A stretch of 64,000 nt of DNA, from NCBI GenBank assembly GCA_947588705.1, contig CANPYT010000003.1, positions 1-64,000 on the forward strand, in the 5' to 3' direction. Under the pieces are notes generated by a model. That model made no database searches, was not told the origin of the DNA, and was given only the letters and a program-made list of their open reading frames with translations. This DNA comes from an uncultured Acetatifactor sp. (GTDB taxonomy: Bacteria; Bacillota; Clostridia; Lachnospirales; Lachnospiraceae). Positions 4,313-11,921 of this stretch are shown here, piece after piece (within the stretch, counting starts at the first letter, position 1; every line of letters begins with the position of its first letter). A program made the translations under genes and the position numbers.

Positions 4313-5571
4313 CTTATCTCTCCATCACTAATCCGACTAGACAACTCTCTGGCCCGAAGAAAACAATCCTCCATAGAGCAATACGTCCATTCGCCGTAAC
4401 GCCCCGTCGTGTAGATATTGTTTTGTTCAAGCGATTTTCTTTTCTCCCCCACATACGCCATAGATTCTGCGGATATGTGGACGTAAGCCGGATCAATTAC
4501 AATGCTTTCATACGCTGTTACTTTATGTTTGTCAATCACACCGCATCTTTCAAGGTTAGAAAGTGTCTGCATATATTGTCCTGAAACATCTACTTCCTGG
4601 CTATGTTCGAATCCGATTTCTACATAAACACTGAGTTTATTTTGGCGCAGAATGTTATTATAAAACCCGACTCGATAGAAGTTCACGTCCTTATCAGGAT
4701 AATAGACCCAATGCAGCGAACGGTCGATTGACGGTCTGTCAAAACCGATATTAAATACCAGCACCTTATTCCAAGACAGACATTCTGGTATGCTCTCGCC
4801 CATTAATTCTAAAAGTTGAGGAAACGGAATCGAACTGACCAAATACTGATATTCATAAGTGTCTACTGTGGAAACAATACGTCTGCCAATAGGGTCTATG
4901 CTCAGCACTTCTTCATTCAGGTGGATTTTTTCTTTCCCTACTTGACACAATAAATAGTCAATGACTGTATAAGCACCGTCAACCGGATATATATAGTGGT
5001 CGTTATAAGAAACGTTGTTCCCATTTTTCATATTTTGGATAACCTCAGTCAAGTCCGCATATGGGAAAAAACGCCCCATCGCATCCTGATCCAGTTCATC
5101 TAGGTCGCAGGCATAAAGTTTTTCATTGTACGGAACCAGAAACCGATCACAGATTCCCTTGCCGAACTTTCCAAATAACATATCCTTAAATGATGTATAT
5201 ATCTCTTTTTCTTCTTTAAAAAAAAGATCATATAGACAGTCTATAAAGTCTTCCTTTTTTAATTGATGTATATTTTTTTGAAAAGGATAGTCGATCATTG
5301 AGTTTCGAAAATTAATTTTTGTGTTCTTAATTTGGCGAACACATTTACTCCCCTGAAGCACAGGTTCAAAATAGCGCCTGCTTTCTTCATTTTTAAAATG
5401 GAAAAAATGACCCGCAAAATCCCAAATATATTCTCCGCAGGCTTTGTGAGTCCTGCAAAGGCCACCCGCATCGCTTTCCTTTTCCAACACTACAAAATTA
5501 TTTGAATTTAAATTGCCCGCAAAAGCAAGACCGGATATGCCCGCTCCTAAAATGGCATATTTCACTTTCAT
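4309..5571 (-). CDS. FAD-dependent amine-oxidase/UDP-galactopyranose mutase-like enzyme
   Basis: 420 aa. The N-terminal Rossmann motif ILGAGISGLAFAG (residues ~7-19) followed by an acidic strand end (VVLEKESDAGGLCRT) marks an FAD-binding protein of the protoporphyrinogen oxidase/UGM-like superfamily. A GHFFHF segment near residue 55 and a late YTTGRYGEWTY segment are typical of members found in sugar-nucleotide clusters. Because a galactofuranosyltransferase-like gene is in the same operon, a UDP-galactopyranose-to-furanose mutase-type activity is an attractive guess, but the classical UGM active-site signature was not recognised. It overlaps the neighbouring GT4 and GT2 genes by 4 bp each. 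Confidence 0.65.
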   Translation of the reverse strand: MKVKYAILGAGISGLAFAGNLNSNNFVVLEKESDAGGLCRTHKACGEYIWDFAGHFFHFKNEESRRYFEPVLQGSKCVRQIKNTKINFRNSMIDYPFQKNIHQLKKEDFIDCLYDLFFKEEKEIYTSFKDMLFGKFGKGICDRFLVPYNEKLYACDLDELDQDAMGRFFPYADLTEVIQNMKNGNNVSYNDHYIYPVDGAYTVIDYLLCQVGKEKIHLNEEVLSIDPIGRRIVSTVDTYEYQYLVSSIPFPQLLELMGESIPECLSWNKVLVFNIGFDRPSIDRSLHWVYYPDKDVNFYRVGFYNNILRQNKLSVYVEIGFEHSQEVDVSGQYMQTLSNLERCGVIDKHKVTAYESIVIDPAYVHISAESMAYVGEKRKSLEQNNIYTTGRYGEWTYCSMEDCFLRARELSSRISDGEIR

Positions 5572-6895: not shown

Positions 6896-7309
6896 TTAAC
6901 TATAATTCGCTATCGTTCCAATCAACTCGCTATAATAATCCGCCCATCGTTTTGCCTGATATTTAATGTCAAACTTGTCAATTTGTCCTTCTTTTGTTCT
7001 TTGGTTGTCCTTTCTCCGGAGAACAGTTTCTGCCCATTGTGTGCTCCCTGCCTCAAGATTCAGGAATGTTACATCTTCAGTTATTTTAACCTCTTTGGTG
7101 ATACGATCAGACAGAATACAGGGCAGCCCGGCCACCTGAGCTTCTATGGCAACAACCGGCAAACCTTCATAACGCGATGGTAGCAAGAAAATATCCATCG
7201 CCTGGTAAAGCCGATTGACATCCTTTCTTGATCCTAGAAGATAAATGCACTTACGTTCTTCTCCCATCGTTGTTGCTGACTCATCTTTTTGCATTTTTAT
7301 TTTTTTCAT
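6896..7309 (-). pseudogene. C-terminal remnant of a GT4 glycosyltransferase (tandem duplicate)
   Basis: 137 aa. From residue ~22 on (YLLGSRKDVNRLYQAMDIFL, then SRYEGLPVVAIEAQ) it is clearly homologous to the last third of the upstream GT4 gene (LLGSRRDCERLYQAMDLLLF, SRYEGLGIVAIEAQ). It lacks the whole N-terminal acceptor domain and the first half of the donor domain, so it should have no transferase activity by itself. Its reading frame starts inside the last codons of the upstream gene (29-bp overlap) in another frame. The simplest history is a tandem duplication followed by deletion between the copies. It still has an open frame with the E-x7-E motif, so a small regulatory or structural role cannot be excluded. 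Confidence 0.75.
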
Positions 7310-8396
7310 AAAAATTCTCCAGATTCTTTACCTGTACACAAACGTCATAGGCTGCCATTCTTTCATTTTGAAGGTTTATTTCTCTTACAGACTGCAGTGC
7401 AGCTTCTTTCCAAGTCTGTAATCCTGCGGCAAGATCCAAAAACTCTATACCATCTGAAATTTGGGTTTCCACAGGAACATTCGTTGATGCAAGTACCCGC
7501 AAACCTCTTATTTGTGCCTCAATTGCCACTATGCCCAATCCTTCATACCTTGAGGGAAACAGCAACAGATCCATCGCCTGATATAATCTTTCACAATCTC
7601 TACGGCTGCCTAATAGCCGTACCCCCCCCGCATTTTCAGGCATACTTTCCACACGTGCACGAATGCGCTCAAAATCTTCTCCATCACCAATCATTAACAA
7701 CACGGACTCTGGATTTTGAGCATGGATACTCTGAAAGATATCAATCACAAAATCCTGATTTTTTTGATAACGAAAATTACCAACATGACCGATTACAAAT
7801 TTATTTTGCAACCCTAATTCATCTCTGACCTCATCGCGCACTTGTTTGTTAAAACGATATTTGTCCAGATCAATTGCATTGTTAAAAATAGTTACCTGAC
7901 CATTCCTCATTGCTCTCTTTCCAAACAGCCATTCTCCGGCAAGTTTGGAGCAGGCTGCATAGTGTGTTGCATATATTTTAGAAAATGGACGAAGCATATA
8001 TTTGAAGATGTTTTTCTTCCACTCTCCTGGAGCAGCAGTTGAATGACTGTGTGCGATGCGGATAGGCACACCAGCTTTCTTAGCAGCATAGAGAGGAAAC
8101 ACACTTAAACTGTTAATGTGGGAATGAACAATCTGATATCTGTTTTTACGAAAGATTGTTACAAGCGCAGGTATATATTGACCTAATTTTTGATATGGCG
8201 GAACAATATAAATTCGCCCACCCAGGTTTTTTATCTGATCCTGAAGAAACTGTGTATGAGTAGAATCAGCATCTACGATAAAATCAAACTGTATTTTTGA
8301 CCGATCAATATGTCGATAATAATTCATTACTACCGCCTCTACACCGCCATTAATCATTTTTCCCATGACCTGTGCTACACGTATTGGTTTCGACAT
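7281..8396 (-). CDS. Glycosyltransferase family 4, EpsF-like
   Basis: 371 aa from the ATG at 8396 (MSKPIRVAQVMGKMINGGVE); the track start nine codons earlier lacks a better ribosome site. GGVEAVVMNYYRHID and the HSHINSLSVFPLYAAKKAG segment match EpsF-type GT4 enzymes. VIGHVGNFRYQKNQDF starts the donor domain, and SRYEGLGIVAIEAQ is the E-x7-E motif. It is the first sugar-adding gene after the LoaP leader, so its expression is the one most directly exposed to LoaP control. The downstream remnant at 6896-7309 is derived from a relative of this gene. Confidence 0.88.
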   Translation of the reverse strand: MSKPIRVAQVMGKMINGGVEAVVMNYYRHIDRSKIQFDFIVDADSTHTQFLQDQIKNLGGRIYIVPPYQKLGQYIPALVTIFRKNRYQIVHSHINSLSVFPLYAAKKAGVPIRIAHSHSTAAPGEWKKNIFKYMLRPFSKIYATHYAACSKLAGEWLFGKRAMRNGQVTIFNNAIDLDKYRFNKQVRDEVRDELGLQNKFVIGHVGNFRYQKNQDFVIDIFQSIHAQNPESVLLMIGDGEDFERIRARVESMPENAGGVRLLGSRRDCERLYQAMDLLLFPSRYEGLGIVAIEAQIRGLRVLASTNVPVETQISDGIEFLDLAAGLQTWKEAALQSVREINLQNERMAAYDVCVQVKNLENFYEKNKNAKR

Positions 8397-8715
8397 CCTA
8401 TTTTTGCCCCATCTATATATCAACCATCAATATTATTTTGTAGTTATTATCATTTAGCCTCAAAAGACATTTTAATCTAACAACTCTAAGTTGTCCGTGA
8501 GACACCGTCTAACACGGATATATTTTTTCAATATATCTTTTTATAAAGGTCTAACTTAATACTTATTATGGCAATACCACCAAACATCATAGTACTAGGT
8601 TTCCTATTTTTCCCTTTCTCCGCCCTTCACAATTAGTATTGACGTTTTCAAAATTTTCTTATCATGATAGTAACAATAGTCATGATAGGTTGCAGTAATT
8701 TTTCTGCTTCATCCA
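8397..8715 (-). promoter_or_regulatory. LoaP-associated leader between loaP and the first GT4 gene
   Basis: About 320 bases without a gene. In transcript order it holds an 8-bp hairpin (arms at 8661-8668 and 8681-8688, no U-run after it), then three hairpins packed back to back at 8480-8537, then the GT4 ribosome site. A leader of this kind placed directly downstream of a loaP gene and upstream of long biosynthetic genes is the known arrangement for LoaP-type processive antitermination. That this particular leader is the LoaP target is an inference from position and structure. Confidence 0.55.
8494..8518 (-). promoter_or_regulatory. Bulged RNA hairpin, candidate LoaP recognition element
   Basis: In the transcript this reads as a 6-bp lower stem (UCCGUG with CACGGA), a 2-nt bulge (UU) on the 5' side, a 4-bp upper stem (AGAC with GUCU) and a GGU loop. 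It is followed without spacing by a second perfect hairpin at 8480-8494 (ACAACU/AGUUGU, loop UAG) and preceded by an AU-rich one at 8517-8537 (7 bp). LoaP proteins bind a structured RNA hairpin in the leader of the operon they control, so this bulged element is my candidate. No binding can be shown from sequence alone. Confidence 0.5.
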
Positions 8716-9225
8716 TCATTTCTTCCCCACCACCTCCAGCCCCACCTTCATCTTTACCATCCTTCCGAAAAACTCCACCTCCAGCACGGCTTGTCTGCTG
8801 TGTCGGTTGATGTAAATTACCTTTCCCGTCAGATCCTTCAGGGGGCCCTCCGTAATGACCAGCTCCTTGCCGATGTACTCGCCCACGCTCATTTCAAATA
8901 CCTTGTCCTGATTGATATGTTTCCTTAAAAATTCCGTCTCCTCCTTATATAGGGGGATCGGCCCTTCATCGTCGCCCAGGATTTTGGTAAACCCGGGAAC
9001 AGACTTCAGTGCCCTGTGCAGCTCGTCCGGGTTTTCCGTCACAAAAAAGAGATAACCTGGGAACAGTGCCTTTAGTTTCCGGATCCAAACACCGTTTTCT
9101 TTCCAGGGCTTTTCGTACCTGGGCAGAAAACACTCTTCGTAGATCTTCCGATCTCCCAATTCTCTGTCGCAGATCGTCTTGATCTGTTCTTCCCGCCCGG
9201 TAGGAACCCATACCGCATACCACAT
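8716..9225 (-). CDS. loaP: LoaP, specialised NusG paralogue (processive antiterminator)
   Basis: 169 aa from ATG at 9225 (MWYAVWVPTGREEQIKTICD). The longer track start adds 18 residues of non-family sequence. The NGN domain is complete: WYAVWVPTGREEQ, then LFPGYLFFVTENPDELHRAL, then VPGFTKILG. The C-terminal KOW domain (IGKELVITEGPLKDLTGKVIYI) follows. NusG paralogues of this kind ride on RNA polymerase and suppress termination across long polysaccharide or antibiotic operons. The gene lies between the priming transferase and the glycosyltransferases, with a structured leader immediately downstream. This is not the housekeeping NusG: the spacing and location match loaP. Confidence 0.85.
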   Translation of the reverse strand: MWYAVWVPTGREEQIKTICDRELGDRKIYEECFLPRYEKPWKENGVWIRKLKALFPGYLFFVTENPDELHRALKSVPGFTKILGDDEGPIPLYKEETEFLRKHINQDKVFEMSVGEYIGKELVITEGPLKDLTGKVIYINRHSRQAVLEVEFFGRMVKMKVGLEVVGKK

Positions 9226-9424
9226 CTTTCTCACTCTTTTCTTTGTTCCGCCCCAAAGGGCAGGCTCCGCCACCCGCACCGGAAGATCCGGATCTAAGTG
9301 CGGTTGATTTCAAAAGGTATCACAACGACTTCCGACAATGTGCTCTGGGCAACAATTACCTTCCGTAGTCTTTGTCTGAGCCAGGGGCTTTCCCTGTCAA
9401 AAGCTGGCAGGGATCTCAGGCGTC

Positions 9425-10874
9425 TTACATCGCGCCGTTTCTCCCTAACACAGCCTTAAAGGTCTTTGCAAGGATCTTGAGATCCATGCGAAGGTTCCAT
9501 TCGCTGATATATTTCATGTCCAGCTTTACCACTTCCTCAAAGTCCGTGATACTGCTGCGGCCGCTGATCTGCCATAAGCCGGTGATGCCCGGTTTTGCTG
9601 CCAGTCTGGCCATATGTCTGAACTCATATTGCTCCCATTCCGCCACGGTAGGCGGCCGGGCCGATCAGGCTCATATCACCTTTTAGTACATTGAAAAACT
9701 GCGGGAATTCATCCAGGCTGAAGTCTCGGATAAAATTACCGATCCCTTTTTTGTAGGTTCCGTCAGGCAGCAGCCTGCTTCCGATGATCCTGGGGTCTTC
9801 CTCCATTTTGAACATGAACCCGTTTTTGATCTTATTCTGTGCCATCAGCTCCGCTTTCCGCTGTTCCGCGTCCATATACATACTGCGGAACTTGTACATT
9901 CGAAACCGTCGGCCGTTTCGTCCTACCCTCTCCTGGACAAAGAACAGAGGGCCTGGGGATTTGATTTTGATGGCCGGGGCTAGAAACAGGGCCAGGATCA
10001 GGGTAATTAACGATCCCACCAGACCGCCGACAATATCCAGCATCCGTTTCAGAAACAGCTGGCCGCTGGTGGCGTAATTGACGCTGGTCGTCATCACCGT
10101 ATAATTTCCCAGGCGTTCCACCAGTTGTCTGCGGTTGATCACTCTTTCCCCGTCCAGCAGTTTCTCATGGACGATCAGTCCCATTTCCGAAAAATGTTCC
10201 ATTAGCTCCCCGGGCTGTTCCGTTCCTTCCGGAAGGTTGAAGAAAACTTCATCCACCGGCTCCCTGTGGACATATTCCAGCGCGTCTTCCCACCCTGCGA
10301 CCACGGGAAATCCAGCGATCTGTCCCTGCGCGTGTTCCTGATCCAGAAGCACCACTCCCAAAATCTTGAAATTTTCGTAATTGTGGCTCTTGATATTGTC
10401 CAGGACCGTTGCCGCTATACTTTCCGTTGTCAGGACCAGCAGCGTCCGTTTTCCCTTTCTCACGATCTTTCTTTTCAGGAAGGTTTTCCATAGGATCCGG
10501 GTAACATAGCCGATCGCGCCGTAAATAATGCCTGTGAGGTACATGACGGTCCGGGAAAAGGTACTGCCCTCCTGGACGGAAAACAGGTAAAAAGTCGCAC
10601 AAAGCTCCACCAGGCAGACCTGCCGCAGTGTCACGGTTGCCTCTGACAGATATCCCCTTCTCAGGACATTCTTAAACATATCGGAAAAGATCATCAGTAC
10701 CACGGCGATCAGAGAAAGCACTACCGCCATATTGCGGTAAGTGACCTGGGCATAAAGGATCCCAAATCCGTGCCTTATCATATATGCAGAAAAAAGTGAT
10801 AAATTCAAACAGACCAGATCCAGCATTATAAAATCCAGATGTTTGATCCATCCCTGCGAACATTTTCGATACAT
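9425..10874 (-). pseudogene. Priming undecaprenyl-phosphate sugar phosphotransferase, frameshifted
   Basis: Two overlapping ORFs (416 aa and 73 aa) make one polyprenyl glycosylphosphotransferase of ~465 aa. The N-terminal part has about five membrane segments, followed by a nucleotide-binding-like domain. The catalytic domain begins at KRMLDIVGGLVGSL and includes FVQERVGRNGRRFRMYKFRSM. The frame breaks right after KGDMSLIGP: the frame yields AAYRGG, whereas the next ORF gives RPPTVAEWEQYEFRH and then PGITGLWQISGRS. Restoring two bases (one CG unit) at about 9651-9662 rebuilds the conserved GPRPP motif. This enzyme puts the first sugar-1-phosphate on the lipid carrier, so the break should stop polysaccharide synthesis unless another primer exists or the base call is wrong. 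Confidence 0.85.
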
Positions 10875-10976: not shown

Positions 10977-11006
10977 GAAAAATGGGTGGCGGGCGTTACC
11001 CGCCCA
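10977..11006 (-). terminator. Probable terminator after the SPKTG protein gene
   Basis: In the transcript a GC-rich hairpin (GGGCG...CGCCC, or a longer bulged CGGG/CCCG pairing) is followed four bases later by UUUUU. It lies about 50 bases after the stop of the SPKTG gene. It would end the cpsBCD-srtB-lcp unit before the priming transferase and loaP. Confidence 0.5.
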
Positions 11007-11057: not shown

Positions 11058-11921
11058 TCAGTGATTAAGCTGTGCTCTCTTTGCGCATACAGCGGCGCCG
11101 GCCAAAAGGATCATGGTCGCGAACACTGCTGTGGGCACGGTCTCGCCGGTCTTGGGAGACACGGGCGTAGACGTGGGAGCTACAGTTTCGTTGGTAGTCT
11201 GCGTAGTCTGGCTGGCAGTCTGTGTAGTCTGGCTGGCAGTCTGTGAAGACTGGCTGCTGGACTGTGAAGACTGGCTGCTGGACTGCGAAGACTGGCTGCT
11301 GGACTGCGAAGACTGGCTGCCAGTCTGCGAGGACTGCTGCTCATTAGTAACCGGATCACCTACTATAGGTGTAGGTGTCGGTGTCGGCGCTACCTCTGCT
11401 ACTGTTACTAAGAACAGCGCATAGTTAGAGTAATCGCTTCTGGTGAATTTGATTACGCCGTTTTCGACCTTAGCGCCTTCGACCGGCTCCCATCCGGACG
11501 TACCCTGATGCATCAGCACATACGTCTCGTTTTCCTTAGTATCTTCAACCTGATAAGGAATCTCAATGGAGATTGTCCCGCTTTGCGACGGTGTGATGTC
11601 CAGTATAAATACCAGATCTACATCTACCTGCGCGCCCGCTTCGATTGTAATAGCATCAGCGGCGGCCTCCACGATTTGTGTCTTCAGGGTGCTGTTTTCC
11701 GCTTCGATCTCATTGCTGACTGCATTTACAACAGTTTCGCCGCCTTCTGGCTCTCTGATCGAAACTTCAACTGGTTCTCCCTGACTGTTTGTTGCAGTTG
11801 GCGTTCCAGCCTTATCCACCCATGTGTTAATGGTGCCAGGGCTTACCTCGGCACAAACCGTCATGCCAAGTGTCATGGCAAGCGCCATAGACAATGCAAC
11901 AATCTTAGAAAACTTTTTCAT
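11058..11921 (-). CDS. Secreted Ser/Gln/Thr-rich protein with SPKTG sortase signal
   Basis: 287 aa. A typical signal peptide (MKKFSKIVALSMALAMTLGM, cut near VCAEV) starts the protein. Residues ~30-175 form a folded domain of beta character with no family I recognise. Then comes PTPTPTP, then a low-complexity stretch of SSQSSQS heptads and TASQTTQ units (~195-245). The C-terminus has SPKTGE, a hydrophobic segment and a basic end (KRAQLNH), which is a cell wall sorting signal of the S/N-PKTG type. The class B sortase two genes upstream is its likely anchoring enzyme. The Ser/Thr-rich stretch is a likely O-glycosylation or polysaccharide-acceptor region. There is an AGGAGG-type ribosome site. 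Confidence 0.8.
   Translation of the reverse strand: MKKFSKIVALSMALAMTLGMTVCAEVSPGTINTWVDKAGTPTATNSQGEPVEVSIREPEGGETVVNAVSNEIEAENSTLKTQIVEAAADAITIEAGAQVDVDLVFILDITPSQSGTISIEIPYQVEDTKENETYVLMHQGTSGWEPVEGAKVENGVIKFTRSDYSNYALFLVTVAEVAPTPTPTPIVGDPVTNEQQSSQTGSQSSQSSSQSSQSSSQSSQSSSQSSQTASQTTQTASQTTQTTNETVAPTSTPVSPKTGETVPTAVFATMILLAGAAVCAKRAQLNH
11197..11330 (-). repeat. 21-bp tandem repeats encoding SSQSSQS heptads
   Basis: Several near-identical 21-bp units (plus-strand core GACTGGCTGCTGGACTG) follow each other inside the SPKTG gene. The unit length is a multiple of three, so copy-number change would alter spacer length without a frameshift. Confidence 0.75.

Follow-up and report, generated by a model that had tools for sequence, protein, structure and literature searches.

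A conserved leader of covarying hairpins and an ops-like 9-mer beside loaP in Lachnospiraceae: a probable LoaP loading site

Immediately upstream of loaP, the window (the whole stretch of 64,000 nucleotides analysed here) holds a composite leader, read on the minus strand from 9362 to 9256 as hairpin P1, then hairpin P2 and then the 9-mer TGGCGGAGC, with the consensus TGGCGAAGC-N-Y-R. This leader is conserved in strand and position, its hairpins covary, and across the Lachnospiraceae, a large gut-bacterial family, it is a marker of loaP genes and of polysaccharide operons. It is likely a loading leader for LoaP, in which an RNA hairpin would be combined with an ops-like pause, and probably represents the boarding site of LoaP on RNA polymerase. 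Judged by its sequence, it differs from the UNCG-type dfn hairpin already published, from ops and from the Rfam families.

Results

The loaP locus

The source of the window is a Lachnospiraceae genome whose nearest relatives are rabbit-gut Acetatifactor MAGs, and the features of the locus are collected in Table 1. The loaP product scores 147 bits against NF033641 antiterm_LoaP, above the curated cut-off of 125, confirming that the NusG paralogue pointed out in the preliminary description is a true LoaP. Its setting in a polysaccharide operon was also borne out, an EPS sugar transferase, loaP and glycosyltransferases forming an exopolysaccharide operon on the minus strand. A spacer of ~200 nt separates the sugar transferase from loaP and encloses the conserved leader, and on the other side 319 nt lie between loaP and the start of the GT4 gene at 8396. 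On the minus strand, no clear intrinsic terminator was found in the 319-nt gap or in the stretch that separates the P2/9-mer element from loaP. Single-sequence AlphaFold modelling of LoaP reached a pLDDT of 47, and no conclusion rests on the model.

Two further observations concern the upstream side. The frame of the EPS sugar transferase is broken by a frameshift near 9640, its C-terminal part running on in another frame, which may be due to an assembly error or indicate a pseudogene. At 10988-11004 (minus strand), between this gene and the one at 11058, a GC-rich hairpin with a T-run after it resembles a terminator.

Table 1. Features of the loaP locus in the window
Feature	Position	Strand	Basis
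EPS polyprenyl glycosylphosphotransferase, upstream of leader	9425..10874	-	PF02397 / TIGR03025
P1, apical part of doubly bulged hairpin AAGGUAAUUGUUGCCCAGAGCACAUUGUCG, bulged U8 and U11	9333..9362	-	R3 match; covariation in A6, A7
P2 (CCGCAC/GUGCGG), then ops-like motif and CUGCCCUU	9256..9303	-	R1, R2 matches; covariation in A4
Ops-like 9-mer TGGCGGAGC (consensus TGGCGAAGC)	9264..9272	-	in 51/67 loaP loci
Predicted pause, T-1 / G+1	9261..9262	-	inferred from Y/R columns, in register with ops pause
loaP, NusG paralogue LoaP, 169 aa	8716..9225	-	NF033641, PF02357
H1-H3, three hairpins; real, not the conserved LoaP element	8479..8537	-	fold z -3.1
GT4 glycosyltransferase, first gene downstream of loaP	7281..8396	-	PF00534, PF13439

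The ops-like 9-mer

The 9-mer was first noticed by comparison of loaP flanks, as TGGCG[AG]AGC upstream or just downstream of the gene. In sense orientation it occurs at most 350 nt from 51 of 67 distinct Lachnospiraceae loaP genes, with a single antisense occurrence and a mean of ~0.6 in dinucleotide shuffles, the exact 9-mer being missing within 350 nt at 16 of the 67 loci. Housekeeping nusG loci carry it in one case out of 20, either strand being counted. Some loaP genes of other Clostridia also have it, as do hardly any of 13 more distant loci. On the non-template strand, the 9-mer could form a mini-hairpin GC-GNA-GC. The column of the predicted pause is a pyrimidine in 42 of 52 elements (p 9e-6) and the next one a purine in 41 of 52 (p 4e-5), both values being simple binomial ones against 0.5; U-runs come after 21 of 52 elements elsewhere, versus 8.9 expected.

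Pairing beyond these features was not general. Over all 52 elements, neither a hairpin P3 after the 9-mer nor a lower stem joining its 3' side to upstream sequence did better than shuffles, such pairing being seen at single loci (L096, L068, L163 and L172). At three loci outside Lachnospiraceae (L163, L172 and L212) the element is flanked by GGTCATAGC ... GCTAT(G/A)(G)CC, and these flanks could possibly form a long lower stem. A stem of 8-9 bp that ends in a T-run, terminator-like, encloses the element at L096, L097 and L068. Tandem loaP-like pairs (L071-L074, L096, L097 and L113, the last with three genes in a row) have the element after them, not before. L205-L208 and L211 share a conserved block upstream of loaP, GTAAACGGTCAC(T/A)AAAGAAGG...TGTCGAATA, whose TGTCGAA we take to resemble a Spo0A box.

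Covarying hairpins P2 and P1

P2 ends exactly 1 nt before the 9-mer. Pairing probabilities at positions -2 to -5 from the 9-mer reach 0.64-0.92, versus 0.30-0.46 in shuffled sequences, and the value at -1 is 0.07. In alignment A4 the P2 stem is 98% paired, with 72 cells changed on both sides, and all four modelled pairs covary, the overall covariation of 0.943 comparing with 0.303 after shuffling and no more than 0.19 after sliding; A4 was fitted to the P2 structure, a bias in favour of P2 from which the pairing-probability test is independent. The R1 model, built without the window sequence, has its sole match within the 64 kb here (E 0.014), and for R2, the P2-motif model, 9303-9256 is the sole match in the whole genome of the window.

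A second motif, ~65-80 nt upstream of the 9-mer (log-likelihood 256, versus 60-67 in shuffles), corresponds to the apex of P1, a covarying hairpin with two bulged bases. P1 is 96-97% paired, with covariation of 0.52 (A6) and 0.50 (A7) versus 0.25 and 0.15, and its R3 match in the window reaches 39 bits (E 3.3e-7), the window P1 sequence having been included in the building of R3. A P1 was recognisable in no more than about half of the elements. Its model gave no convincing match outside Lachnospiraceae, the one at L203 being on the wrong strand.

Genome-scale search with the P2-motif model

Among 299 genomes, 31 matches of at least 27 bits were obtained, 26 of them, by our own count, beside loaP or loaP-like genes, most of these 26 loci having contributed to the model. 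The blind part of the test is formed by the loaP-like genes not fetched earlier (L224, L225, L227-L231 and L233). All of these lie within ~170 nt downstream of an element and were reached via the RNA alone, their products being below the LoaP family cut-off. At L229, a 220-aa ORF lies 169 nt downstream of the element and a second one ~1 kb downstream; at L230, element and loaP-like ORF overlap at the start of the ORF as listed. The genes at L224, L225, L227, L228, L230, L231 and L233, which had escaped detection as LoaP at the E-value applied, often encode 170-270 aa and stand directly behind the element, preceding sugar-transferase or other polysaccharide genes.

Five matches are not beside loaP, and three of them correspond to a contig end (L193) and to two sites in G328, one of which (L187) was inspected and resembles coding sequence. 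Two elements, at 4414-4451 (L222) and 5351-5388 (L223) of the reverse strands, have aminotransferase-type polysaccharide genes after them and no loaP close by; the genomes concerned carry loaP on other contigs. These two elements might be trans targets of LoaP.

Three hairpins behind loaP

The preliminary description had placed a new LoaP target in a ~320-bp leader between loaP and the GT4 gene, in three hairpins packed end to end. The length of the gap is right, but the name of leader belongs to the conserved region upstream of loaP. The hairpins exist on the minus strand from 8537 to 8479, as H1 (GATATATT-GAAAA-AATATATC), H2 (CCGTG-TT-AGAC-GGT-GTCT-CACGG) and H3 (GACAACT-TAG-AGTTGTT), and the 76-nt segment containing them folds at -17.7 kcal/mol, versus -10.1 (sd 2.5) in dinucleotide shuffles, none of 200 being as low. 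H2 has the TT between two stem parts; an outer stem of 6 bp would require bases that the ends of H1 and H3 also use, and in the best fold this stem counts 4 bp.

As the conserved LoaP target, H1-H3 was rejected, given the near-absence of homologues and the decay of H1 and H2. The gap sequence has no significant full-length DNA homologue among 60 genus-mates, its homologues being limited to L038 and L127/G088, that in G088 found by a two-sequence profile, with all copies behind loaP; a DNA search for the block in 250 family genomes added just short, unconvincing matches. At the two other loci H1 is lost and H2 partly broken; H3 keeps 7/7 pairs in all three copies, with one double change. The comparison with other loaP genes that had been suggested as a check of conservation and covariation thus went against the three hairpins, while the expectation of a new structured LoaP target nearby held for 9256-9362, on the other side of loaP, where covariation is strong.

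On balance, the H1-H3 block is read mainly as a recombination scar, debris of variable genes at a place where polysaccharide cassettes swap behind loaP. In its first part, the L038 block holds the decayed remnant of a GT4 gene start (alignment score of 54 versus a shuffle maximum of 38; the peptide read from the block has no Pfam match), L127 carries a 140-nt partial tandem repeat (81%), and a 137-aa C-terminal GT4 glycosyltransferase fragment at 6896-7309 of the window, behind an apparently full-length GT4, suggests cassette exchange behind loaP; the pairing of H3, kept in all three copies, is left over from that account. In both L127 (1360-1797) and L038 (3540-3830), a block of ~300 nt lying between loaP and the first gene was observed to contain an H3-like hairpin and GT4 gene-start relics. 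That H1-H3 constitutes a second, lineage-specific LoaP target or an attenuator is highly improbable, for although H3 pairing is maintained, all copies stand behind loaP and the fold beats shuffles, there are just three loci with H1 lost and H2 partly broken, the L038 block starts in a GT4 relic, no U-tract follows the block on the minus strand, and the leader covariance models R1 and R3 have no match in it.

Discussion

A composite loading site for LoaP at the P1/P2/9-mer leader is suggested by (i) the register shared with ops, (ii) the spacing of P2, and (iii) what is known of LoaP, which binds a leader hairpin, counteracts NusA and benefits from a pause. The nascent RNA would fold P1 first, this hairpin being the best candidate for direct LoaP binding. 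Some 65-80 nt further on, as counted from apex to motif, RNA polymerase would transcribe P2 and then TGGCGAAGC-N-Y followed by R, and would pause at Y with P2 located 12 nt behind the RNA 3' end, in a hairpin-stabilised, his-type and NusA-stimulated pause. In the bubble, the non-template strand might fold as GC-G-A-A-GC, a mini-hairpin of the ops type whose loop is one base shorter. LoaP, made from this very operon, would be recruited at the pause, displacing or antagonising NusA, and would then ride along with the polymerase as it traverses the long polysaccharide operon. Pausing, binding of LoaP and read-through are each predicted for the leader. This mechanism may not carry over from the published LoaP case, in which the target is UNCG-type and pause-free, UNCG hairpins showing no enrichment here.

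In its full form, the proposal is that clostridial LoaP is loaded RfaH-style, through a non-template hairpin with a single-purine loop, a pause stabilised by an RNA hairpin and NusA, and a LoaP-binding hairpin, which we put forward tentatively, as credible rather than probable. If true, such loading would bring together two recruitment modes, ops/RfaH and RNA-hairpin/LoaP, within a single leader, and would provide a partner for ops-like hairpins with non-T loops.

Recognition purely at the RNA level is possible though rather doubtful. LoaP would then bind P1 and/or P2-UGGCGAAGC RNA once clear of polymerase, in a dfn-like manner, the likeness to ops would be coincidental, and UGGCGAAGC would act as a single-stranded or GNA-loop RNA motif. 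Such recognition agrees with the covariation of both P1 and P2, with the small hairpin that r(GCGAAGC) could also form, and with LoaP being the one NusG paralogue known for specific RNA binding, both of its domains being involved, at a dfn hairpin that is pause-free (PMC12691694). However, taken alone it leaves unexplained the constant distance of 1 nt between P2 and the 9-mer, the Y-R step 10 nt after the motif start and the ops register. Regarding UGGCGAAGC itself, roles at the RNA level and in non-template DNA are inseparable by sequence alone.

It is very unlikely that TGGCGAAGC serves some unrelated polysaccharide-operon regulator as its DNA site, such as a promoter element or an activator site, since the 9-mer, despite being close to polysaccharide operon starts, is sense-only and 3' of a covarying RNA hairpin, keeps its association with loaP even where loaP comes first and the element second, and would be transcribed at L100, L105, L110 and L114, loci whose best promoter matches are good and stand ~115-120 nt further upstream.

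The leader makes testable the question raised in PMC11001881 of whether ops-like non-template hairpins with non-T loops recruit other elongation factors. Being recognisable, it makes LoaP regulons predictable in gut Lachnospiraceae (capsule and exopolysaccharide operons), and searching with it exposes LoaP-like genes missed by the protein model. For LoaP, one type of target has been studied so far.

Comparison with known systems

In his-type pauses, about 11-12 nt separate the hairpin from the RNA 3' end, and a pyrimidine occupies -1. The leader is similar in placing P2 12 nt behind the predicted 3' end with a pyrimidine at -1, these being predicted features, and differs in combining P2 with an ops-like motif.

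LoaP acts as an antagonist of NusA and works through a hairpin in the leader RNA, with a pause further downstream as an aid; the hairpin it targets in Bacillus velezensis, dfn/mln, is of the UNCG type and does not induce pausing (PMC12691694). The present leader resembles dfn/mln in that a leader RNA hairpin is tied to LoaP and to long biosynthetic operons. On the contrary, it shows two hairpins plus an ops-like 9-mer, and the pause that aids antitermination downstream of the dfn/mln hairpin is here a predicted one. No UNCG hairpin of at least 6 bp was found within 700 nt of the loaP of the window, and such hairpins near loaP occur at 5 of 58 loci versus 2.55 expected, this lack of enrichment leading us to reject a dfn-type hairpin as the LoaP target here.

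EAR (eps-associated RNA), an antitermination RNA of polysaccharide operons in Bacillales according to Irnov and Winkler (2010) as reported in PMC12691694, shares with the leader the tie to polysaccharide operons, the leader being, as far as that account goes, simpler, with two hairpins, and loaP-linked. At the gathering threshold the window matches no Rfam family, EAR included, and near loaP there was no match at E <= 10. No earlier description of the P1/P2/9-mer leader was found in the open-access literature, although the subscription LoaP papers (2017, 2021 and the crystal-structure one) may hold one.

In the ops element of RfaH, the E. coli relative of LoaP, the non-template strand pairs G2:C9, C3:G8 and G4:A7 around a G5-T6 loop, with the pause at U11 (PMC11001881). 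As in ops, a short leader element of polysaccharide-type operons would have a NusG paralogue as partner, and GCGAAGC reads like the ops hairpin GC-G(GT)A-GC with one base taken out of the loop, aligning in the register of the ops pause; sequence data on their own permit both a GC-G-N-A-GC non-template hairpin and Y/R at that register. The exact ops 12-mer with T6 is absent, and loops of ops length (GGCGNNAGC) are present at 3 of the 67 loaP loci, none of them GGCGGTAGC. While the loop of ops is GT and RfaH needs T6, the loop here is a single A or G, so the element is not ops itself. Moreover, unlike in ops, the 9-mer is preceded by covarying RNA hairpins, and its partner would be LoaP instead of RfaH.
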